Shown here: piece by piece, positions 23,968 to 43,539 of the stretch
How the letters are laid out: every line of letters begins with the position of its first letter
How positions within the stretch are numbered: position 1 is the first letter of the stretch
Assembly: GCA_949751835.1 (NCBI GenBank)
Contig: CATKHK010000065.1
Location: 213,754-277,753 of the forward strand
Length of the DNA: 64,000 nucleotides
Direction: 5' to 3'
Origin: Blepharisma japonicum
Lineage: Eukaryota > Ciliophora > Heterotrichea > Heterotrichida > Blepharismidae
The notes under the pieces: generated by a model
What the model saw: only the letters and a program-made list of their open reading frames with translations
Told to the model about the DNA's origin: nothing
Database searches by the model: none
Program-made: the position numbers and the translations under genes

Positions 23968-25560
23968 ATGGGATCATGCCTAAAAAAACAAGGGAAAAGC
24001 ATGAGAATATCTCAAGATCATTACACTATTGAAACTCCAATAAGAAGAAATGATTCAGCTCATGAGTCTCTAAGATACGTTTTTTTACAAAAAAGTAAAC
24101 TTTATATAGATATTCACCTAGATTTTGAATTTATCAAAGTCCTTGGTCACGGAAAATACGGGAACGTAAATTACGCGAAAAAGAAAGATCCGCTTATTAA
24201 GCAAGAATTTGCTGTAAAAAGTCTTATTAAGCCTATGATTGAAGATAAAATGTATACAATTCATCGAGAACTTGAGGTTCTGCTTTCTGTTGACCATCCA
24301 AATATAGTAAAATTTTTTTACGCATATGAAGATCCGAAGTTCATTCATATTGTCACTGAGTATTGCCCAGGTGGGGATTTACTTTCTAAGCTATGCCAAG
24401 TCGGAAAATTTTCTGAAGTAGAGACTGCTACTATAATCAAAAAATTACTTGGCGCACTGAACCATTTACATGGGATGGATATTTGTCATAGGGATATAAA
24501 ACTTGATAATATTCTTCTTGCTTCAGAAGATTCCGTGTCAAATATAAAGCTAATTGATTTCGATTTTGCCAAAAGAATTGACAATCTCCACCTTGACATG
24601 AACACAATTGTAGGAACTTTGCATTTTATCGCCCCAGAAGTTTTTGACAGAGTGTGCGGAACTTCTGCGGATTTGTGAAGCCTTGGAATCGTTATGTATA
24701 TTCTGCTTGTAGGAAAGCCACCATATAGAATTGACAGTGAAAGGGAGGTCCTTGATCAAATAAAAAATAGACAGCTGGATTTCAATGATGAAGAGTATCA
24801 AAGGACAAGCCCGCTTGCCAAAGATTTATTATCAAAACTACTAGACACTAATTATAATAAAAGAATTACAGCCAGAGAAGCACTAAAACATCCATGGTTT
24901 GTAACAGTGAACCAAAAATCAACTGACTGTAATAACGAAATAATCTTAAAAAGACTAAGAACATACCAAGTAAAAGGAAGATTGAAGAAAGAAATAATGA
25001 AAATTATTGTTAGGCTTCTAGAGCCAGAAGACATTCAAAACCTAAAAGAAGTCTTTGAGCTTCTAGATACAGATCATAATGGATACATTACTTACGAAGA
25101 CTTCGAAAAAGGTTTAAGCACAATTGGGGTAACTGATGCTTCCGAGATTGAGCGTAATTTTTAGTTAGAAATTTGAAGTTGTGCAGAAACAACTATAAAA
25201 GGCAGACTAAGATACTCTGATTTTCTAGCAGCAACACTTAATAGGAAATCAGCGCTCACAGAATCTACTTTGTGGGCGGCATTTAAATACTTCGACTATG
25301 ATAACTCTGGGAAAATGACCCCAGCGAATATATATTCTGCCCTTAGAAGAGCAGGAGTAGACATAACAGACGAAGATTTAGAAATAATGCTAAAAGAAGA
25401 AGGTATCTTATTGACCCAAAAAATTGACTTTTCAGAGTTTAAAAAGATTGTTCTTCGTAATTTTTATATAGCTGTTGAAAATTTTATAAGAAAAACTTCT
25501 TTGCAGTCTAAACGAAGTATTGGAGCTCTTAGTCTTGAATGGGGGTTCAGCTTTATGTAA
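23968..25560 (+). CDS. Calcium-dependent protein kinase (CDPK), N-acylated, one intron
   Basis: 525 residues from ATG 23968 after removing intron 25154-25168. MGSC gives Gly2 myristoylation and Cys4 palmitoylation. The kinase domain (about residues 50-310) has the Gly loop LGHGKYGNV, FAVK lysine, CHRDIKLDN catalytic loop and APE (FIAPEVFD). SADLWSLGIVMYILL has its Trp as TGA at 24676-24678. The metal-binding DFG reads DFD (LIDFDFAKRI). An autoinhibitory junction and four EF-hand positions follow. EF1 (DTDHNGYITYEDF) and EF3 (DYDNSGKMTPANI) look competent; EF2 and EF4 are degenerate. CDPKs act in calcium responses of protists and plants. An ATG 33 bp upstream is in frame but would block acylation. 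Confidence 0.92.
25154..25168 (+). other. 15-nt intron
   Basis: GTAATTTTTAGTTAG. Removal joins C to AA and gives EIEQIWSCAETTIKGRLRYSDFLAATL, the normal CDPK EF2-to-linker sequence. The unspliced frame stops at TAG inside the intron. Confidence 0.93.
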
Positions 25561-25623: not shown

Positions 25624-26520
25624 TTATTCTTTTTTCTCTTCTTCTGCCAATTTACGTTGTGGCTCGACTTCTGCAATGCGAACGTGTGCGATGCCTATTT
25701 GTGCTTGGATAAGAGGGTCGTTCCAAGGCCCTGCATTGCTCATAAGGCAGCCTACCGGACAATTGCAATTTCCTCCTAAGAATTGTGGGACGTTATCTGC
25801 AGGAGCTAGTTCTAATAGTTTTTTTTGGAATTTGCTGCCTTCAAGACTGATTTTTTGTTGAGTTCGCTCATCAAGCCAAGGTCTTATAACTTTCCAAGCC
25901 ATTGAGAAAAGTGTTGGAGTATTCACAATAAACATCCTCCCAAGCATTTCTGGGTAGTAGTCTTGACCAATTTTAGAAGCCATCTGCACAAACTTGTAAA
26001 CCTTTTTGCTCATCAGCTTCATAGAAGACCCTCCCAAGTCCAAAATCGTCAGCGATTGCTCTACAGGATGCCCTGCAGCTACTGCACATGATGGAATTGT
26101 TATACTAAGCATTGTTTCATAAGATTTAACGAAATATCTTAGCATCCTATCTTCTGTCGTAATTTCAAACAGTCTCTTTAAATCCAGTGCCCCAATCCTT
26201 TCAATATAAATAGGTCTCCCATGCGAATCCGTCTTATGAAAGCCATGAGGATAGCAGGCTTTTACCTGTTCAATTTCTGGAAACTCATAAGACATGATTT
26301 GGTCGACTTGGAACTCTTCTCTCCACTTCAGGTAATTTTGGAACATCTCCATCGCTTTATCAAAGTTGAACTTTCTGGCACGGAGAAATCTGCCTAAGGT
26401 ATGGTCGTCAAAATTCCCTCCCAGCGCTTCTTTGAATCGGACAAGAACTTGGCGCTCTTCTGGGGTGAGAGTTCCTAGAAGGGTAGGTAGAGGAGTTGTA
26501 AGCTGTTTGCGCTCTTCCAT
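25624..26520 (-). CDS. SEC14-like CRAL-TRIO lipid-transfer protein
   Basis: 298 residues, one exon. CRAL-TRIO N-terminal helices cover residues about 1-75 (DDHTLGRFLRARKFNFDKAMEMF). The SEC14 lipid-binding domain (about 85-270) has GRPIYIERIGALDLKRLF, LTILDLGGSSMKLM and the gate region YYPEMLGRMFIVNTPTLF. Family members swap phosphatidylinositol and phosphatidylcholine and support Golgi and phosphoinositide signalling. The start ATG lies only 29 bp from the oppositely oriented ATG of the BEACH gene, whose first 74 codons are a diverged copy of this gene's first 74. This complete gene is presumably the parent of that copy. Confidence 0.93.
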   Translation of the reverse strand: MEERKQLTTPLPTLLGTLTPEERQVLVRFKEALGGNFDDHTLGRFLRARKFNFDKAMEMFQNYLKWREEFQVDQIMSYEFPEIEQVKACYPHGFHKTDSHGRPIYIERIGALDLKRLFEITTEDRMLRYFVKSYETMLSITIPSCAVAAGHPVEQSLTILDLGGSSMKLMSKKVYKFVQMASKIGQDYYPEMLGRMFIVNTPTLFSMAWKVIRPWLDERTQQKISLEGSKFQKKLLELAPADNVPQFLGGNCNCPVGCLMSNAGPWNDPLIQAQIGIAHVRIAEVEPQRKLAEEEKKE

Positions 26521-26557
26521 TGTTTATTGGCTTAATAAACCAATAAACAATGGAAGA
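26513..26557. repeat. Perfect inverted repeat across a 29-bp divergent spacer
   Basis: Arms 26513-26530 and 26540-26557 are perfect reverse complements (18 nt each) around a 9-nt spacer CTTAATAAA. They contain both start codons: the SEC14 ATG at 26520 reading left and the fusion-gene ATG at 26550 reading right. The symmetry continues imperfectly for about 220 bp on each side as duplicated coding sequence. Confidence 0.97.
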
Positions 26558-29500
26558 TCATAAGCAACAAACGATTCCGCTGCCCGCACTTCTAGGGACA
26601 TTAACGTCTGAAGAGCGGCAAATACTGCTGAGATTTAAAGAATCCTTAGGGGGAAATTTTGATGACGATACTTTAGGCAGATTTCTTCGTGCGAGAAAAT
26701 TCAAATTTGATAAAGCAATGGAGATGTTTCAAAATTATTTGAAGTGAAGAGAAGAATTTGGAGTTGATGGTAAGCGAATTTATGAGCATTTAGAAACAAT
26801 GGCATTTGGCGGGGTAATAAAAGAACCATTAACTCTTTGGGATATAGTAAATGCTCTGCCAAAAAAATCAATTGCCCAATTTGTATTTCAACTGCTAGCA
26901 AATAATAATTTTGAGTATCAATCAATGCAGACTGCAATTAAGCTTTTGCAAGCCCTTATCACCCCAGATAGGTCAAATTCACCATTCAGCTATTTTTATT
27001 TTCCAGGTCCAGGTTGCGGTTTACAGTTAAACCCAGAAGATTTTCAAATTTTTCCATTCCAAAAAGCCGTTTCAGCTTGTTTTTGGATACGTCTTGAAGA
27101 CTTAAACTTAAACACCCCTTCAACTTTAATGCTGTTTCACTCACAAGGAAATGGCGGGATTGAAGCATATTTTATAGGAAACAAGCTTTACTATAGAGTG
27201 CTTGGGGTTGAATATTCCCCACCAGTAGAAGGCTCTAATGGAATTTTACTTCACGAATTTCAGCCTGAAGATTGAACATTTCTAGCATTTGAGCATGAAA
27301 AACCAAAAGTAGGAAAATATCAGCTAAGAGTAGTAGTAAATGGAGAAGAAGTATTGAATTCTCCTATGGATTACCCAAAATTCAAATCTCCCAACCCAAT
27401 TTTGACACACGCTGCGTTTTGTCTGAGCTTTATAGGCCAAATTAAGTGTATCATGATTTTCGATGACTTGATTTCTGTACAACGGATGAAGTCAATATAC
27501 CAAAAATCAAATGGAGCTGTCTCACAAGGCCATGAAGCAATAAAAGCACTTTGCCGAGGAATTGATAAAAATTTGAATAAAAAACTTGTGCTGTTTTATC
27601 ATCCACTCAGGACGAATAATAATATAGCTTATGATGGAGTTAGAAAGGCAGATGCCAAGTTTCTAGGAGGAACTGGGGTCAAGCTGGTAAATCAAAGCAG
27701 AATGTCATGCTTCGGCGGGGTATGTGCACTTTTACCAATTTTAGAAAAAATAAAAAGCATCCCTATAAAGACTTCAGAATTATTAAGTGATTGGTTTGGG
27801 CTCCTAATAACGTGTTTAAGAGATCGGCCAGAAAATCAAGTTGAAGCTTGTATCATGAAACTTTTTAAAGCTGCTTCTGAGCTTCTCTTACAATTTCCCC
27901 CGAACTCTATAACTGAAGAAATAGTCCAACAATTAGAAGAAATTTCTCAATTTGTCATGCCTCAGCTACGAGACCAATTAACTGGACATTTACTGTGGTT
28001 TTTAGATATTTGGAAAAAAACAGAAAAAAACACTCAGGTAAAATTATTTAAATTATTAAAATCTTTGTATACGAAGGCACCAAAGCAGCTTAGCAAGCAG
28101 GTTGACGTTAAAATGATTCTTGAATTATTAATATGCCATTATGGAGGAAATGATAATATGGTTTCTGAAGAGCAAAATAAAGAGCAGATATGTGATATTG
28201 TGTCAGTAATTGAAATTATATTTTTAACAGTTGGAGAAGCTATGGCTGTTGAGATAAATCATGTTATTTCTGCATTGTTTGGTAAGTCATCTCCATTTAT
28301 TCAAATTCAACTATTACAGCTATTAAAAACTCTTCTTAGTGACAGGCCTGGCGATGTATTTGGTGCTCCAGCTTCAGTTTTTGCTAAAAATTTCATTGAT
28401 GCATCAGGTCTTGAACTTTTACTATTTTTAATATCATCTTCAGTGTCAGAAGTGAGAACTCTAAGTCTTGCATTAACTGACACCATTTTAAATTACTCTA
28501 CTAAAACTCAGATTGCAAGCCACAAAGAAATTTTTGTTTACATAAGTTCAATAGTATTGCCAACACCTAAAGGTATGAGTGGCTCTTTTAAATATTGGCA
28601 GCATTCCATAATATCCCCGCATGATACTTTTCAGTCTATAAGTTCTAAAGAGGAAGAATCAGTCGAATTTATTACTTCAAAACTACCATCACTTCAAATA
28701 TCTGATGAAAATATCAAAGCACCCCCTATGTCAAAATTCAAAAAACAAATGAAATTTGGGTTTTTAGATGAAGAAGAGGAAGAAGTCAAAGATACAAAAG
28801 AGTCTAAAATTGATGAAGAAGAGGAAGATTTTGGGATTAAGCCTCCACCTGCTCCATCATCAAAGAAAAAAATCAGCTTTACTTTTTCAGATCCAAAGCC
28901 GATAGAGGTACCTCAAGAGGCTCCTAAAAAGCAGGGAGGATTTATATTTGACGAAGATGAAGATGCTCCATTAGCTCCACCGCCACCTAAGAAAAACATG
29001 AAGATGAGCTTTGATGAAAATGCTCTCTCAGCTCCTAAAAAAGATACCAAAATGAGTTTTGATGAAGAAATTTTGAAAATCCCAGCCTCTAAAAAAGAGC
29101 CAAAAATGAATTTCGAAGAAAATGTCCTAGTTGCTCCACCTCCACCCAAAGGAAGAAAACCAAAAATGAGCTTAATGATTTTTGAAGATGCTGAAGAAGA
29201 TATACAACTGACAGATTTACCTATGACTGAGAGATTTATAGAGCCAGAAGTATCAGAAAATATTGATTTATCAAAAACTCAAAATTCTTCAAAAATCGTA
29301 AAGTCTTTCAGCCAAGGCAGAAAAATGCCAAAATTTCTATCAGATGAGCTAATTATTGATACAGAAAAAATCAATGAAAATTACACCTTTGGAGGAGAAA
29401 AAGGAGAAGCTATAAAAGCTGAAGATGAAGGGGAGGAGGATCCTTTAATTAAAGAAATACGTGATATGACCAAAGAGTGCTTAAAATATATGCACGGAGA

Positions 29501-32500
29501 AATTGCAGTAAACCAAGAATTTCAGTTCTACCCTTTACCTCCTACATTTCGTCCCCAAACAGTGAGAGGATTAAAAACTATAAACTTATCAAGTACTTTT
29601 AAAAAAGAATCAGGAAATCATCCAATAATTGAAGAAGTCAGCTCAGAAATGTCGCCTCATGAGTCTTTAGCCACTCCAAAGAGACATGAAGAAGATGGCG
29701 TTTATCATGCTGTCCTTGGAATTGTTCTCAAAAAAACTATTGAAGGCGCTGACATTATTGATGACTCTGACCATATAGAATCTAAATCAGGCTTAACTTT
29801 ATTGCAAGAAATCGTATCTCGAGCTTCGTTAGAGCTAAAGCATAAAGCTATGCAAGATATGCTAATGCTTACAAAATGGAATTCCAATAATTCTTCTATC
29901 TTAGCTCAAGACGCTGATTGGCATTATTGGCTGCTTAATTTATTATTTGAAACTCCTGAGCACCAAGATGAAGGAATTGCAATTTTTGACTTAGGCTCAA
30001 GAATTCATACAATTGTTATGAAACAAGCTATGCTAGCTGATGAAGAAGGCTGGAAACATATCAGAAGACTAATATATTGGTATGAAATGAAGAGAGATAT
30101 AGAAAAAGCCAGAAATATCGTAAAAAGTTTATTAGAAAAACTTAGTGAGTCTTTACAGTCAAACTCTATGGGATGCAGGCCTGCACTTGTATCGACACTA
30201 TGGAAAAATTTGGTAATTACAAGCTATTTGGTAGAAGAGTTTGTGATTTATTCAAAATCAAGGTCAGAAGAAGAGCTTGGGGAATCATTAATAATGGCTG
30301 ATGAATGGGAAGATGCCACTGTTATGGATCTTTATTTCCAATTGCTTGACCCTATATGGCCAGTAGTTCTTTTTAATAATAAAGAATCAAAGTATGAAGA
30401 AGAACATATACAGCTTATTAATACTATAGAAAAAGCTGCACAAACTGCATTCAAGACTGATATTCAGCTGCTTATTTTTGAACCTCCTGGAGAGCTTAAG
30501 CCCAGAGGACTGTTTATTAAAACAATTATGCACTTGGCCTGCATGAGTGTAAAAGCAAGCACTAATGAAGAACAGACAAAGCTTTGACTGTCAATAGTGG
30601 AAAGGCTAATTAAATTTATATTATTGGTGTCTGAAGCAGGAAAAAAACAAATGCAAAGCCAGACTACTAAGGTTCTTAATGCATGCATTTTATATACAGT
30701 TGGATTCTTTGCTTCTTATTTAGACGAGTTGAGAGAAGATCAGAAAACACAGTATATTCAAACATCGGTAACAAATATTTTGAAATATATCTTTACAGTC
30801 TACATATCAAGCTTAAAATCCAACCAAAGTCAAGGATTTAAAGGATTTTTAAGGTCTGGCTTTGTTTCTACTACTGTAAGCGAAGATGTTGCCACCATAA
30901 TCCTGCAATTTTTATCCGACACTGATATGGAGCGCCTAGAAAGCATGATGGCTGACAATTTTGAAACTCTTGACTATCTAATCACCACTGATGATTGGAA
31001 ATTCGCTTTAATATCAGCAGCTTCCCAAGTAAATGATCAATTTGATAACAAAATAAGGACGAAAAGCATATGCCAGCATAGAGAAAAAGTTGCAGAAAAA
31101 CTTAGCAAAGAATGAGATGCATTAAGCAAGCAAGTTGAAGAAACCAATACGAGAATAAATAGCCATGTACAGAAAATTGCTAATGACAAATCAAATGATG
31201 AAGAACGGAAAATAAATAACGCGATCGTCCATAATGAAGAAAGAACCAGACAAAGGAAGCATATGCTGAATAAAAGAATGAGACTTTTAACTGAATGGCG
31301 AGGGCCTTGGCATGTTGAACAAGAAATCAAGCTTGAACCTTGCCAAATAATGGATTGGCAATACACTCGACCAATTCTAAAAATAAGGTCAGATAAATTC
31401 AAGCCTTTTATGAAACAAGAGCAAGTACAAATTCCAGAAAATCCTAATTTATTAAAAGAGGTTTCACCAATTATTTTGAGAAAAACTTCAGATATCGAAT
31501 ATGAAGATGATGATAAATCTATGAACACTGAATCTGAAGAACCAAGCGCAAGAGCTTCATTAAAGCCAAAAATAGACTCTTCTTTAGCGTCTATTTTAAG
31601 TCACGACAGTTTTACTATCCAATCAGAAGTGGGAATAATTAATACATTAACAGTGAGATATGGAATACTTCAGCTCATAACATCCAAAAAAGAACAAAAA
31701 TTGCGATTCATTTATGACCCAGAAGTTAAGCACAAATTCCAGTCCAATGTAGAAATTTTCGAATATTCAGCATCACCAAATAAATCCTATATAAAAGATT
31801 GGAACATAGAATCTTTAGAAGTGGTTTTTCCGAAGACTTATGTTATGAGAAATACAGCTGCTGAGTTTTTCTTTAATGATGGCAGAAGTGCATTAATAAA
31901 CTTTACTAATCCTAACGAAAGGTATGATTTTGTGAACCAAATTAAAAAAATTAAGAAAAATGCTGTTAAATTGGAATTTTTCAAAAAACCAAACCCAATG
32001 AAATTCATAGCAGAAAGCGGGATGACTGAAAAATGGCTGAATTGGGAAATCAGCAATTTCGAATATTTAATGTTCCTGAATTATGCGGCTGGAAGATCTT
32101 ATCATGACTTAACACAATATCCAGTTTTTCCATGGGTTCTTAATGATTATCAATCTCCTACTATTGACCTTAATAATGAATCTATATATAGAGATCTGTC
32201 CAAAAACATGGGCAGCCTAGGCCCAGTTGAGAGATCTCAAAGCTTCAAAGAGAGATATTCCTCATTTGGCTTCCCTGAAGAAATTCCTCCCTTTCATTTT
32301 GGATCTCATTATAGTAACCCTGGAATAGTTTTTCACTATTTATTAAGGTTATTCCCATACTCTGAAGGCGCCAGAGAGCTTCATGGTGGCAAATTTGATC
32401 TCCCAGACAGACTTTTCAGTTCAATTTCAGAGTCTTATAGGCTTTCTACCGATGATATTGCTGATGTGAGAGAATTAATCCCCGAGTTCTATTTTTTGCC

Positions 32501-34004
32501 TGAATTTTTGATCAATAAAGAAAACTATGATTTTGGCCTAACACAGCTGGGCAATAAAATTAATAATGTCCAGCTTCCTCCATGGGCTCCTACTGCTTAT
32601 GATTTCATCAGAATTAATCGAGAAGCATTAGAATCCAATGTTGTTTCAGAAAAAATCCACAGCTGGATAGACCTAATTTTTGGGTACAAACAAAGAGGTC
32701 CTGAAGCAGAAAAAGCAATGAACATTTTTTACTATATGACTTATGAATCTAATATAGATTTAGACAAAATTGAAGACCCTACCCTCCGTGCTTCTATTGA
32801 AGCTCAAATCGTGCACTTTGGAAAAACCCCTTCGCAATTATTCACAAAGCCCCATCCACAGCGAGAAAATCCCCATAAAACTAGTCCTGGCCCAACAGTC
32901 ATCTCTAAAGAAGCCAAGCTGAAAATTTATTTTCCTCAATATCGAAAACCTTTTGATAAGCCTTTTACCTTCATGAATTATTTTGATCTCCCTGACAAAG
33001 CCATACTTAAGGCGAAAATGTATAAAGACAAAGAAATTTTCGCAATCAGGAGAAATGGTAATTTAATTAAATATAACTGGTGGCCTACTCCTATGGGCGA
33101 ATGTAAAACTCCATTTACATGTGCCAATAATAAAGAAATTCAGCTGCTGAAGGACCAAAAATCGTGGACTATTGAAAATCAAGACAGGTCAGCTATAGGT
33201 TTTAACGCCCCAATTGAGATTATGGACCAAGGAAAAATCATTGTGAAAGGAGGGTTTTGGGATGGAAGATTGACGGTCCAGAAAGCAAATGTAAAGGACC
33301 ATCCTCATAAATGGTGTCATCATAATACAATTACATGCATTGATATAGACGAAGAAGAAAAAGTAGGGATCACTGGAGGAAAAGATGGAGATGTACTAGT
33401 TTGGCAAGTTAAAGGAGATGTATGGCAGCCTAGATGGCAATATATTGACCATGATGACCAAGTTATGTCAGTCACTATTTCTCAAGAACTCCGACTATTT
33501 GCCAGTTGTTCTTTGGATGGAACGTGCAATATTTATTCACTTATGAAAGGCAGACTTATTAGAGTAGTCAGTCTTCCAAACTTTTCCCCTATTTATATGG
33601 TCAAATTTTCCCCAGCGGCTCCTGCAAAAGTAGTTTTATTTTCTTCTGAAGAAAGCTGCTTATACTCATTTTCTATTAATGGAGAACCTTTATATAAAGT
33701 TCATGAAAGGTGTGTCCATATGACGAGTCCGATTATTTTGAGAAATTTAAATCAGCAGGAATTTCTTATTTATGGGACTGAAACTGGAGATATTGTGATC
33801 AGATATGCATCGACACTTGAACCGTTAAGGAGATTTTCAATTACAGGAGGATCTCCTGTGCTGACGTTAATGGCTAATAAAGACCTTAGATTTTTGCTTG
33901 TAGGGTGTGCTGATGGAGAATTAGGCGTTTTAACTGATCCTGATGCAACTCTTTTAGTATTGGAAAAGCAATGGCAGCTTGGAAATGTACTTAATCTCGG
34001 CTAA
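26550..34004 (+). CDS. Giant BEACH-WD40 protein with a duplicated SEC14 N-terminus
   Basis: One open frame of 2,484 residues, read through TGA Trp at 26745, 27273, 30585 and 31113. Residues 1-74 copy the CRAL-TRIO N region of the neighbouring SEC14 gene (61 of 74 identical). The BEACH-family part starts near residue 84 with alpha-helical repeats. A concanavalin-A-like domain lies near 140-330 and more helical repeats to about 730. An acidic/proline tract with KMSFDE-type repeats follows (about 735-885). A PH-like domain (about 1690-1815), the BEACH domain (about 1820-2107, with NWEISNFEYLMFLNYAAGRSY and HFGSHYSNPGIV) and C-terminal WD40 repeats complete it. BEACH proteins (neurobeachin, LvsA, LYST) are membrane-trafficking scaffolds. 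If the first 83 codons are not translated, ATG 26799 is the alternative start. Confidence 0.93.
28755..29190 (+). repeat. Acidic/proline repeats inside the BEACH gene
   Basis: Degenerate repeats of about 20-30 residues with cores such as FDEDEDAPLAPPPPKK, MKMSFDENALSAPKK, TKMSFDEEILKIPASKK and PKMNFEENVLVAPPPP. They alternate an aromatic-acidic patch with Pro/Lys. Such repeats look like arrayed short linear binding motifs. Confidence 0.75.
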
Positions 34005-37911: not shown

Positions 37912-40900
37912 ATGCACTACTTGTTTTTTATACTCCTATCTTATCAATTTTCCAAAATTAAAAGTTTTGCACCTGAAAACTCTATAAGAGATGATCAATA
38001 TTTTTCAAAATTAAGAAACAATACCTTAAACTTATTTGAAGAAAAACTTGAGGATCAGTATTTGGCTAAGACTCTTATAGATCGTCATAGAGGCAATATA
38101 AATAACTCAATTGAAGAGAACATTCTTTCGAAAAAATTCTCAAGAAAGCTTTGCTTATCGAATGAATATGATGACGGAACAGGAACATGTATAAGTTGTG
38201 GGACAAATTGTGATCAATGCACTCAAGATTCATGCACACAATGTCAAACCACTTTTCACCGTGATATAAATAATCTTTTTAATTGTATTACCTGTGACAC
38301 TGCTAATGGGCAATATATCACAAATGATGACAATTGTTCTTCTTGCTCTGATACATGATGTGAAATTTGTCCTAACGATGCTTGCACTACCTGCAAAACT
38401 CCTTATTACTTCAAAACTCAGTCAGACTCATCAATTTCCTGTGATAATTGCAATACAAATAGCGGATTTTATGTAAATTCAGATACATGCGAGCCATGCA
38501 CAGACACTAAATGTGGAAAATGTCCTAGTGATGTATGCTCTAAATGCAAATCGGGGTACCTTTTCAGTGTAAATGATCCTTCCTTATGTGATTCTTGTGA
38601 TCTTTCTAATGGATTTTATAATAGCTCAGATCATTGTGTTGCATGTTCTGATACCCATTGTGCTAAATGTTCTGGTGATGTATGCACTTCTTGTAAAGCA
38701 AATTATTATTTCAGCATAAGTGACCCATCACTTTGTGATGTTTGTAACACAGATGGCATTTATGGGGATACTGATGGATATTGCAAGACTTGTGCTGATT
38801 CTAATTGTGAGCAATGCAATGCAAAAAATCAATGCAGTGTCTGTAAAATAAAGACAAATTATCCGAATGGTAAAGGAATTTGTGAAAAATGCCCAACGAA
38901 CCAATATACTAATAATGATGGAATTACTTGTAATGATTGTCCTTCTGGGACATATTCAGATTCTGGAGCTACAAGCTGCACCAATTCCTGCTCAATAGTA
39001 GATTGCGATGTTTGTACAGGGCCAGGCCAATGCTCAAAATGCAATAATATTAATCATTATTTTACAGGAACAGCTTGCCAAGAATGCCCTGCAGGAAAAT
39101 ATTCAAAAGGTGATGGCTTAACATGTTCAGCTTGTGAAGACCCTGGATGTCTTGTTTGCACAGGAGGAGGCCTTTATTCTTGTTTATCATGTTCAGCCCC
39201 TTCTTATTATTTATCTGATGGTCGCTGTACTCCTTGTCCAAGTGGAAAGTATTCTATTTCAAGTACTGCTTCTTCATGTATTGACTGTGGACTTGGCTGT
39301 TCTTCTTGTAGCAGCTTAACTGTCTGCAATACTTGCAATGATCCTACTTCTATGTCAAATAAAGGTGATGGGACATGCTCCTGTAGTTATTCGAACTATT
39401 TTATGGACTCCACAAATATATGCAGACGATGCTATGATTTATGTTTAACTTGTAGCTCAATAAACAGCTGCAATTCTTGTGTCCAGCATTCATCAATACC
39501 AAGCGGTTCAGCTCTATGCCAGTGTGATGAAGGATATACAAAAGCTGGACAAAGCTGCGAATCATGTGGAAATTTATGCTTAACATGTGTATATGTAGAT
39601 AATAATAGGTGCAATATTTGTGTAAAACATGCAACACCGGTTGAAGAAAAAGGAGGAGGATGCACTTGTAATGACGGCTTTTATAAATCTGGAAACATAT
39701 GTGTTGCGACATGCAGTAAATTATGCTTAACTTGTGATGCTGAGCATGGAAGTGTATGCTCAAGCTGTGTTGAAAATGCAGAACTAATTGGAACTATATG
39801 CAGCTGTACTGCAAACTCAATATATAATTCAACTACAAATTCATGCGTATGTAATAGTGGATATACAGAAGTCAATAATAAATGTGTCCTATGTAAGAAT
39901 TATTTTGAGTTGACTGATGTTATTGATGGGTACTATAATGGTGATTTTTCTGCAATTTTAATAGAATTTGGTGAGGCTATTGACACTTCTGTTGATCCGA
40001 GCTGCTCAAATACAATTGATCCTATAAGTCAGTATAAGTTGGGATTAGTGCCAGTTTGCACGTGAGATGGAAATAATAGACTTAAGATTCAGTTGGGAAA
40101 AGAATTCATGATTAGACTTGAAAATGTATATTTGCTTGGCACAAATATAGTTAAAAAAGATGGAAATTGTACGACAAATTATAACCAGCTATATGTACCT
40201 TTAAGAATTACATCAGATCCAACGCCAAGAGCTATAATATCAGGCCCTTCATCATTTTCTCTAGGTTGCACAGACACCAATCTTCAATACTCAGGTCTAA
40301 AATCAACTGGCAGTTTAAACTATTCAATGGCATATTCATGATCCGCAGCAATATCACCAGCAAATTCAGTCTTGATTTCTTACATCTCCACCCAAACGGG
40401 CTCAACACTCAATATAAACAGAACTTATTTTTCAGCTGCCACTGATTATGCTTTAACAGTTACTTTAAAAGTCACCAATGCCTTTTCGTATTCCAATGAA
40501 ATTTCTCTGACAACATCAATAAACTCAACTCCATCTCTTCAAGTATTAATTGATGCAGGCAATAACGATAATATGAAATCATCAGAATTGAGAATTTATA
40601 AAGCTTCAGTTTTTTCTTATTGTGGAAGCGATACATATGGTATATCTTGATCATGAAGCTACGTCCCACAGGCTGGAGCTCCATCAATTTCTTATATATC
40701 TATTCTTTCGACATCTAAACAGCCTAATAAGCTTGTAATTAACCCAAAAATGCTGCCTGGCGGGTACTCTTATATGTTTACTGCGACAGCAAGTTTGACG
40801 GATTCGTCAGGAGTAAAAAAATCAGGCTCTGCTTCTATATTGATATCTGTGACATCTACACCTTTAGTAATTCAGCTATCAAAAGCAGGTGGGACTGTAT

Positions 40901-43539
40901 TTCCAGATAAGCCATTTGAAATTAATGGTGATGGATCATACGACCCTGATGGTTTATCAGGATCGTTAGCTTATGAATGATCATGCCATTATTCTTCAAA
41001 TAATAGTGCATGCAAAGATAGGGATGGGAATCAGCTTATTTCTGGACAGTTCTATTCAAGTTTAGCTATTTCTTCAGGGAAGTTTATCCCAGGTGGCAGC
41101 TATAATTTAACTCTTACTATTAAAAAGGATGCCCGCACAGCATCTACAACAATATCATTACAAGCATTAGTTCTATCTGCAAATTATTCATCCAATACAA
41201 GTATAGAGATTTCTTATAAAACTCAAAAAGTATCCCCAAAAGATTCTTTCACAATAGGTGCAACTATTGAAACTGAGCCTGAATCAGCATTAAAATGATC
41301 ATGTAGCGACTCACAAATTTCAATTTCCCCAAACAATTTATCAATGATGAAATTGCCTGCAAATACCCTTATTAGTGGAAATTCTTATACTTTTCAACTA
41401 AGTGTTACCGAAAGTTCAGGAATAGTAAGCTACCAAAATATATTAGTAAATGTAAATAGTGGGGCTGCCTGCATTAATGGGCTTAAAATTTCTCCATCTG
41501 CAGGAAAGTCTTTAACAACTAAATTTTCCTTATCAATTGATGGCTGTGATGATAAAGACAGAGAAGATTTTCCATTAGTTTATACTTTTGAAGACACATG
41601 AAATGGAATCTCTTATGTCCTAGGAATCACCCTTGAAAACGCAATTTCAACTTATTTGTTCCCTGGCCTTAATTCACTTGCTGTAATGGTTTGTGACCAG
41701 TTAGCTGGCTGCTCTAGCTATGAGCAGATCATTTCGATAGGAGAAAATGCAAGATTTTTAGCAGAAACCAGTCTTATGAGTACCTATAAAGCTGAGACAT
41801 CAGATTTAGACAAAATTATGCCAACAGTTACTTTATTTGCTTCATCAGCAGAAATTGATGAAGTGCTATTTACTAAAATGTCAGAGGATTTAGAATATTA
41901 TATAAAAAGTCAAAACTCAATTACATTAAAAATATTTAAAGGTTTATGTGGGGCTATTCAAGCTCTTACAACTCAGGATAGCTTTATGACTCAAGATAAA
42001 TATGAATATTATATGGATTGAATTTTATCATTATTAAATGATAATCAAATACCAATAAATGCAGACTCAAACAGCATTTTTGATATCTTATTAACGATTA
42101 CAAATGGATATATCAGCAATTTCAACTCTACTGCTGGAGATTATGAAAATTCTATAGTAAATGCTAATGGATTTTTAAATAAAATTTTGGATTATATTAC
42201 AAAAGATGACTTGCCAGGCCAGAGCAGCATTCCGAATGCTTCGATTAACACAAGCATTCACGTAGGTAAAATAAGAAATTTCCCTGATTTAATGGTGAAA
42301 AATAGTTATTCCTTTGATGACTTTACAATAATTTTTCCAAGCCATATCCCATTTAATGACACTGAAATATTAAATTTGAGGGCAAATTCTTATGAAAACA
42401 ATGATGAATATTCTTCTTTAATTTCTCTCAGCTATGCCACAAGTGGGACTTACAATAACTTTGTATATGATGCTTCAGATGAAGAAGAAATCCAATTTAA
42501 CAGCAAAAAATATCCCATTAAAATTGAAATTCCATATGGTAAAATACCTGAAAATGGATGAACTTGTTTATTTTTTAATACCTCTTCAAGTGCCTGGGAA
42601 AATAATGGATGTGTTATTTCACAAGTTGCAAGCTCAGCCGTGAGTGTAAAAATTTATCATTTTTCTATGTTCAAATTAGCTGAAAAACCGCTTGAAACAT
42701 TTTTATGTAGCCAGAACTTAGTCCTTATTTATATCATGTCTGTATTTATATTTATTGGACTAATTTTAACCCCAATAGCTTATTTTCTTGACAAAATATC
42801 AACAAGAAAGACCTTGAAAACTCTTACGACAGAAGAAATTAATCAAGTCACAGCAATGAATCTTAATGAATCTATCAAGAATTTAACTGAAGAGCCATCA
42901 CAGCTTGATATTGATATAGAAAGAACTGAGCAGAATGATAGAAATGCTGATGAGGTTGTTAATGAGCCAAATTCTCTGACCACTGAAATAGATGATAAAG
43001 AAATAAAAAAGAATTACATCATATTCTTAGAAGGGCACTTAACGTTAGGATTGTTACTTCATAGAGAAGATTTTCCAAGATATCAAAGAATTTTTGTATT
43101 ATTTACTATTATTTTTTGGGAAATGCTATTAGAAGGGCTATGATTTTATTCTTTTGAAGATTACAAAAATGGGGAGGAAGATGACAATTGGTCTGAAAAT
43201 TATAAAGGAAAATATTTTGGGTACTCAATTCTGGCAATAGTTTTATCAGCTCCAATTGAATTTTTAATGATGTTTTGCTTTACTACTAAAAGAAAAGTTA
43301 AAAAAATATTGATTATTTCGGCATGGGCGTTAGGAGGTATATTACTAAGTGCATCAGTTGCAGGTATTTCAGCATTAAATGTGGAGTTTTGTAATGAATG
43401 GAGTGGTTATTGGACTCTAAGCTTTATATGGGGGATTATTATTGAAATTTGTATTGTTCAGAGTTTATGGACACTAGGAAGATATGCAATTTTAGTTTGG
43501 TATCCCCAGTATAAAATCGAACAGAATAGAAACAGCTAA
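37912..43539 (+). CDS. Polycystin-1-like surface protein: Cys-rich repeats, REJ-like region, GPS-like site, about five TM segments
   Basis: A single frame of 1,875 residues with about ten TGA Trp codons. A signal peptide (MHYLFFILLSYQF) leads to about 600 residues of furin/EGF-like Cys repeats, roughly 50 residues each (for example CSDTHCAKCSGDVCTSCKA). Residues about 700-1400 contain REJ-like repeats with WSC-type motifs (EWSCHYSSN, LKWSCSD) and DGDGSYDPDG-like beta-sandwich hallmarks. Near 1540-1590, CLFFNTSSSAWENNGCV followed by a hydrophobic strand resembles a GPS/GAIN site. TM1 is at about 1603. A cytosolic loop and four more TM segments follow (about 1723-1855), introduced by LTLGLLLHREDFPRYQRIF. 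The REJ-GPS-TM order is that of polycystin-1 proteins. No PLAT domain is evident. Confidence 0.85.

Follow-up and report, generated by a model that had tools for sequence, protein, structure and literature searches.

Introduction

As a kind of event, the chimeric partial duplicate is already known, and chimeric gene duplicates in which a partial copy and other genic sequence together form a new reading frame are reported from C. elegans and Drosophila (PMC3449122). Among rearrangements, fold-back inversions are described in yeast with hairpin stems down to 4 bp (PMC7467729), and the 21 sequenced human cases of another report have spacers of at least 766 bp (PMC3907307). Regarding the two protein families concerned here, the helical N-terminus of Sec14 has been named the CRAL-TRIO N-terminal extension (PMC10225987), and Bcd1, a cortical patterning factor of Tetrahymena that belongs to the NBEA class, is described as an NBEA orthologue (PMC12151471). 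For the ciliate Blepharisma stoltei, short intergenic regions, tiny untranslated regions and tiny introns, mostly of 15 and 16 bp, are reported (PMC9942806). Neither a Sec14-BEACH nor a CRAL-TRIO-BEACH chimera is named in the literature listings and the opening parts of abstracts that were searched.

Here we describe a locus of Blepharisma japonicum, located in a stretch of 64,000 nucleotides at the end of contig C65 (hereafter, the window), in which a Sec14-type N-terminus precedes an NBEA-like BEACH protein. Like the chimeric gene duplicates, the BEACH frame is built from two donors, the Sec14 copies and a BEACH gene of the type found on contig C50, and by this two-donor criterion it can be regarded as one of them; unlike in those duplicates, the partial copy lies head to head with a Sec14 gene and appears to replace the start codon of the recipient. 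The locus also resembles fold-back inversions in its head-to-head arms, palindromic join and short centre, but its arms are only 232 nt long and old, and its candidate hairpin does not go beyond chance. At the protein level, the N-terminal residues of the frame align with those of yeast Sec14 and Sfh1/YKL091C, whereas the lipid-binding CRAL_TRIO domain of the Sec14/CRAL-TRIO transfer proteins is missing. Its DUF4704, PH_BEACH, Beach and WD40 parts are those of the NBEA/LRBA class, from which, Tetrahymena Bcd1 included, it differs in having the Sec14-type N-terminus.

Results and discussion

A single inverted repeat, with arms that are 77% complementary over 232 nt each, joins the 5′ ends of a Sec14 gene and a BEACH frame in the window (Table 1), in line with the adjacent, oppositely oriented SEC14 gene and its duplicated 5′ end that an earlier note on this DNA had pointed out. 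The repeat is centred at 26535, where 1 nt separates the arms, and no other inverted repeat of at least 60 nt with copies within 3 kb was found in the window. Folded as single-stranded DNA, it gives a z of −18.7, and none of 100 shuffles folds equally well. The Sec14 and BEACH genes are arranged head to head with their start codons 29 nt apart, a gap that is not odd for this genome: among 12 divergent pairs collected by simple ORF rules, introns ignored, from the window and four further stretches of the genome, three have gaps of −23, 12 and 29 nt.

The genome (45.2 Mb in 224 contigs) was searched for relatives of both genes. The Sec14 search gave 12 matches in total; a second full Sec14 gene, 88% identical, lies on contig C9, and a more distant one, 68% identical to the adjacent gene, on contig C72. 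We refer to the adjacent Sec14 gene as copy A, to the arm within the BEACH frame as copy B and to the full Sec14 gene on C9 as copy C. The best solved relative of copy A is a Sec14-type transfer protein (E 1.4e-66). The kinase genes next to copies A and C are 75% identical across 393 aligned codons (pS 0.71), and neither the BEACH N-terminal part nor the Beach family, used as queries, had a match on C9. Within the window kinase, the 15-nt sequence GTAATTTTTAGTTAG at 25154-25168 breaks the frame, which remains open there in the C9 copy, and it looks like an intron.

Table 1. Coordinates of the features at the Sec14-BEACH locus, numbered from the first letter of the window
Feature	Position	Strand	Remarks
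Calcium-dependent-type kinase	23968-25560	+	Kinase and Sec14 form a block duplicated on contig C9
Sec14 gene, copy A, 298 aa	25624-26520	-	CRAL_TRIO E 4e-33; CRAL_TRIO_N E 3.5e-8
Left arm of the inverted repeat	26303-26534	-	Leader and first codons of copy A
Gap between the two start codons	26521-26549	.	29 nt; CCAATAAACA directly 5′ of each ATG, with a 9-nt centre
Right arm of the inverted repeat	26536-26767	+	Leader and first codons of the BEACH frame
NBEA-like BEACH frame, 2,484 aa, TGA as Trp	26550-34004	+	Open frame; domains over curated cut-offs
Sec14-derived first 73 codons, copy B	26550-26768	+	Includes CRAL_TRIO_N at residues 36-62
Junction of codons 73/74 and beginning of the native BEACH sequence, residues 73-104 and a few more	26766-26881	+	Match to the C50 paralog
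Met84, next possible start	26799-26801	+	Native homology already begins 5′ of this codon

When TGA is read as Trp, as fits Blepharisma, the BEACH frame has no interruption between 26547 and its stop, and the frame continuity across the junction that the earlier note had reported, together with its TGG-to-TGA change of a Trp codon, is confirmed, Trp66 being encoded by TGA in the BEACH frame but by TGG in the two Sec14 genes. Curated cut-offs are exceeded by DUF4704 (E 4.9e-20), by PH_BEACH (E 4.4e-10), which stands before Beach (E 2.1e-114), and by the C-terminal WD40 propeller NBCH_WD40 (E 2.9e-19), and residues 1750-2105 align with LRBA and NBEA. With a BEACH domain accompanied by PH_BEACH, DUF4704 and WD40, the frame fits the NBEA/LRBA class. 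Members of this class have a ConA-like domain near the N-terminus, and the ConA-like match of the frame, Laminin_G_3 at residues 168-310, reaches 23.0 bits, below the cut-off of 27.6. In the whole genome, the Beach family gave at least 15 matches, a lower bound as all such counts here, of which two adjoin on contig C1 and are probably one gene. Further downstream in the window, a frame of 1,875 residues (37912-43539) has no Pfam match at E 0.001.

Among the first 74 residues of the BEACH frame, 61 agree with copy A, as the earlier note had counted; 12 of the differences fall within the first 73 codons, and residue 74 also differs (Q against G). The CRAL_TRIO_N match in this part has an E of 1.3e-6 and 28.9 bits against a cut-off of 23, and yeast Sfh1 and Sec14 align with residues 10-73 and 11-73, respectively (E 1.7e-10 to 1.3e-9). 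A profile search gave no match to the lipid-binding CRAL_TRIO domain in the BEACH frame at E 0.01, which agrees with the helix bundle without a lipid pocket that had been claimed from the letters. Two weak structure models, one of residues 1-417 alone (mean pLDDT 37) and one of residues 1-150 with one other row (mean pLDDT 60), were read for helix positions only, and helices are predicted at residues 20-32, 39-51, 53-70 and 72-86 by the latter.

The Sec14 homology ends abruptly and BEACH sequence begins, again as described before: of the 90 nt after codon 73, 22 agree with the C9 Sec14 gene and 25 with copy A, whereas 78 agree between these two Sec14 genes. A BEACH paralog on contig C50, which begins MADDFKVSENLQDLAQ and whose frame is open for 30 codons upstream of its start with no other ATG there, served for comparison. 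Because residues 73-104 of the window protein match residues 3-34 of the C50 protein ungapped with a score of 56, where the maximum of 2,000 shuffles is 31, the Sec14 piece appears, judged by this paralog, to end no more than about three codons from where the native BEACH protein starts. Apart from these two proteins, no third homologue of the C50 N-terminus was found in the search, the next match having an E of 1.03. The shared FVFQ motif is preceded by 110 residues in the window BEACH protein and by 116 in the C50 protein, because the ALP motif is followed by 6 residues in the former and by 82 in the latter, a difference of about 76 that may reflect either a loss in the window protein or a gain in the C50 protein.

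Two other candidates at the junction were considered and rejected. The 17-nt sequence GTAAGCGAATTTATGAG, directly after codon 73 and one further base, is intron-like, but its removal would break the frame that carries the native BEACH homology, and the introns of B. stoltei are mostly 15 and 16 bp long (PMC9942806). The arm as a homologous replacement of the C50 helices was likewise discarded, as residues 35-116 of the C50 protein score 17, where the shuffle mean is 21.9.

Based on these comparisons, we propose, as the probable reading of the locus, that the leader, the start codon and 73 codons of a Sec14 gene, encoding the CRAL_TRIO_N helices, were copied head to head, and that the copied piece continues in frame into an NBEA-like BEACH gene, whose native start codon it would have displaced. 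With less weight, a fold-back (hairpin-primed) event within the Sec14 leader may have produced the copy, which was then joined to the BEACH gene close to its start. What the sequence itself shows is the homology, an uninterrupted frame, a junction close to the native start and the pattern of purifying selection given below, and by its sequence the locus is real, old, coding in its pattern and joined at about the native start, giving a Sec14-fronted NBEA-like protein. It is possible, and we suggest it tentatively, that the BEACH scaffold uses the helices as a cap at its N-terminus or for targeting. A more specific course of events, which we regard as rather doubtful, is that a fold-back copy overwrote the start codon of the NBEA-like gene in one step, bringing leader, ATG and helices together, and that these helices replaced lost N-terminal ones of the scaffold and have since been kept by selection outside a lipid pocket. 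In comparison with the C50 protein, a swap of the N-terminal helices is thinkable, but the stretch concerned in C50 does not resemble the arm.

The leader of copy C offers a candidate for the hairpin. At the corresponding position, the sequence GTTTA-ATTA-TAAAC, which starts 23 nt before the ATG of this copy, could fold into a stem of 5 bp with a loop of 4 nt. Priming from this hairpin would produce a joint of 32 nt, which a single substitution and a gap of 3 nt separate from the observed one of 29 nt. A comparable stem is present in 4.1% of shuffles when the exact arm is required and in 16.6% when a shift of up to 3 nt is allowed, and several other short inverted repeats lie upstream of the C9 gene; therefore, the fold-back origin stays a suggestion, plausible but not beyond chance.

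The earlier note had derived the copy from the adjacent SEC14 gene, of which the head-to-head, Sec14-derived piece stands. Given the layout, a local origin would be natural, but the adjacent gene is not established as the source by the sequences: the two arms share 85% and 84% identity with the C9 DNA, and 78% with each other. The tree in which A and B are sisters has the lowest likelihood of the three possible trees in all four analyses. The AU test does not exclude it (P 0.108, 0.155, 0.076 and 0.132), and in one analysis, with the longer alignment and a nucleotide model, its RELL proportion of 0.048 is just outside the 95% set. The C72 outgroup is saturated at synonymous sites. The copy is old.

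A check of dN/dS between the copies had been suggested, and pN is indeed far below pS over the 73 codons, both between A and B (pS 0.83, pN 0.084) and between B and C (pS 0.565, pN 0.069); between A and C, the values are 0.61 and 0.052. On the B branch, 13 synonymous and 9 non-synonymous changes stand against 21.5% of sites being synonymous (P 1.4e-4), and the A branch has 16.5 and 5.5, respectively; the 3 synonymous and 4 non-synonymous changes of the C branch are not significant (P 0.17). Relative to the majority ancestor, B carries 31 nucleotide changes and 8 amino acid changes, and none of 20,000 neutral simulations gave 8 or fewer amino acid changes, while 56% contained a stop. When 38 changes were simulated from copy C, the minimum was 14 amino acid changes in 5,000 runs, against 11 observed. 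The substitution pattern in the arm is that of purifying selection on a translated frame.

The selection on a translated chimera that the earlier note had read from the locus is supported by the substitution pattern, but part of that selection could predate the fusion. Because the three-copy tree is unrooted, changes counted on the B branch may partly belong to the stem of A and C, in which case some of the constraint would not be that of B. Since the duplication is old, moreover, a full Sec14 gene may have been the target of some of this selection before the fusion took place. Carried to its end, this argument becomes a rival explanation, in which the copy long remained a complete Sec14 gene until its first 73 codons were fused to the BEACH gene by a recent deletion, and the selection was mostly that of Sec14. 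The copies did diverge long ago, and B does not differ in its ratio of non-synonymous to synonymous changes from copy A, which is a full Sec14 gene (Fisher P 0.53). However, the low agreement of the 90 nt after codon 73 leaves no Sec14 remnant there, and the Sec14 search gave no further Sec14 piece in the window, and we consider such a late fusion unlikely.

A faster divergence of the arms as a way to avoid the palindrome was also considered, and rejected. With C as the reference, both arms had evolved more rapidly than C itself (chi-square 7.76 for 22 against 7 changes), but the effect vanishes with the C72 copy as the outgroup (A against C, 15:15; B against C, 9:16), and the A-B identity is above the codon-shuffle expectation (z 2.5), not below it.

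With respect to the start of translation, A, B and C share the same 10 nt, CCAATAAACA, directly 5′ of the ATG, and between B and C the identity extends to 15 nt, while most synonymous sites differ. The 14-nt motif CCAATAAACAATGG, comprising leader and ATGG, is found at 26540-26553 on the plus strand and at 26517-26530 on the minus strand, and occurs exactly five times in the genome, three of these being copies A, B and C; the frames that begin at the remaining two sites are 14 and 16 codons long. The identity of the leader in three copies and the rarity of the motif support the use of the ATG at 26550, and we infer that translation starts at this Sec14-derived codon, for which the copied leader would supply the start context and perhaps also a promoter. 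The same two observations would suit a second rival, namely that the copy contributed nothing but leader, ATG and perhaps promoter, the 73 residues being passengers, which is quite unlikely, as the amino acid changes in the arm are far below the neutral expectation.

Very improbable is a start of the BEACH protein at Met84, with the arm untranslated or a separate peptide. The ATG there has a good context (GAAACAATGG), but a start at Met84 would cut into native BEACH sequence, since residues 73-83 match the C50 protein by themselves (P 0.0017, and 0.008 without residue 73), and the arm has an open frame with substitutions of the coding type. Palindromic joins are a known class of assembly artefact, but a false join is extremely improbable here, because it would give nearly identical arms, and these differ at 23% of positions, mostly synonymous.

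If the proposed head-to-head copying of a Sec14 front into the NBEA-like gene is true, the locus would be a clear case of inverted duplication creating a new protein architecture, in which a palindromic 5′-end copy took the start codon of another gene and was selected until synonymous sites were near saturation. It would then become testable whether CRAL_TRIO_N helices act without the Sec14 lipid pocket, and whether they alter a member of the NBEA class, which includes Bcd1.

Several further observations concern the Sec14 type, its leaders and the contigs. On contig C72, the Sec14-type module forms the C-terminal portion of a frame of 692 residues that also has a weak Kelch match (L024, 2790-4865); since its homology starts at about the Sec14 start codon, more than one fusion seems to have involved the Sec14 type of copies A, B, C and C72. 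The CCCTAACA repeat was not seen as a run at the beginnings of contigs C1, C9 and C65, over 180 bases each, or in the last 300 bases of the window, which are the end of C65. On contig C1, at about 935-944 kb (L032-L036), five near-identical leaders CCAAGAAACAATGG lie within 9 kb and precede frames starting MALKE, some of them short or broken, as in a tandem gene family. Finally, codons 1-73 of copy A (26302-26520) have a GC3 of 0.49, compared with 0.36 in its codons 74-270 and 0.25-0.32 in the other copies.
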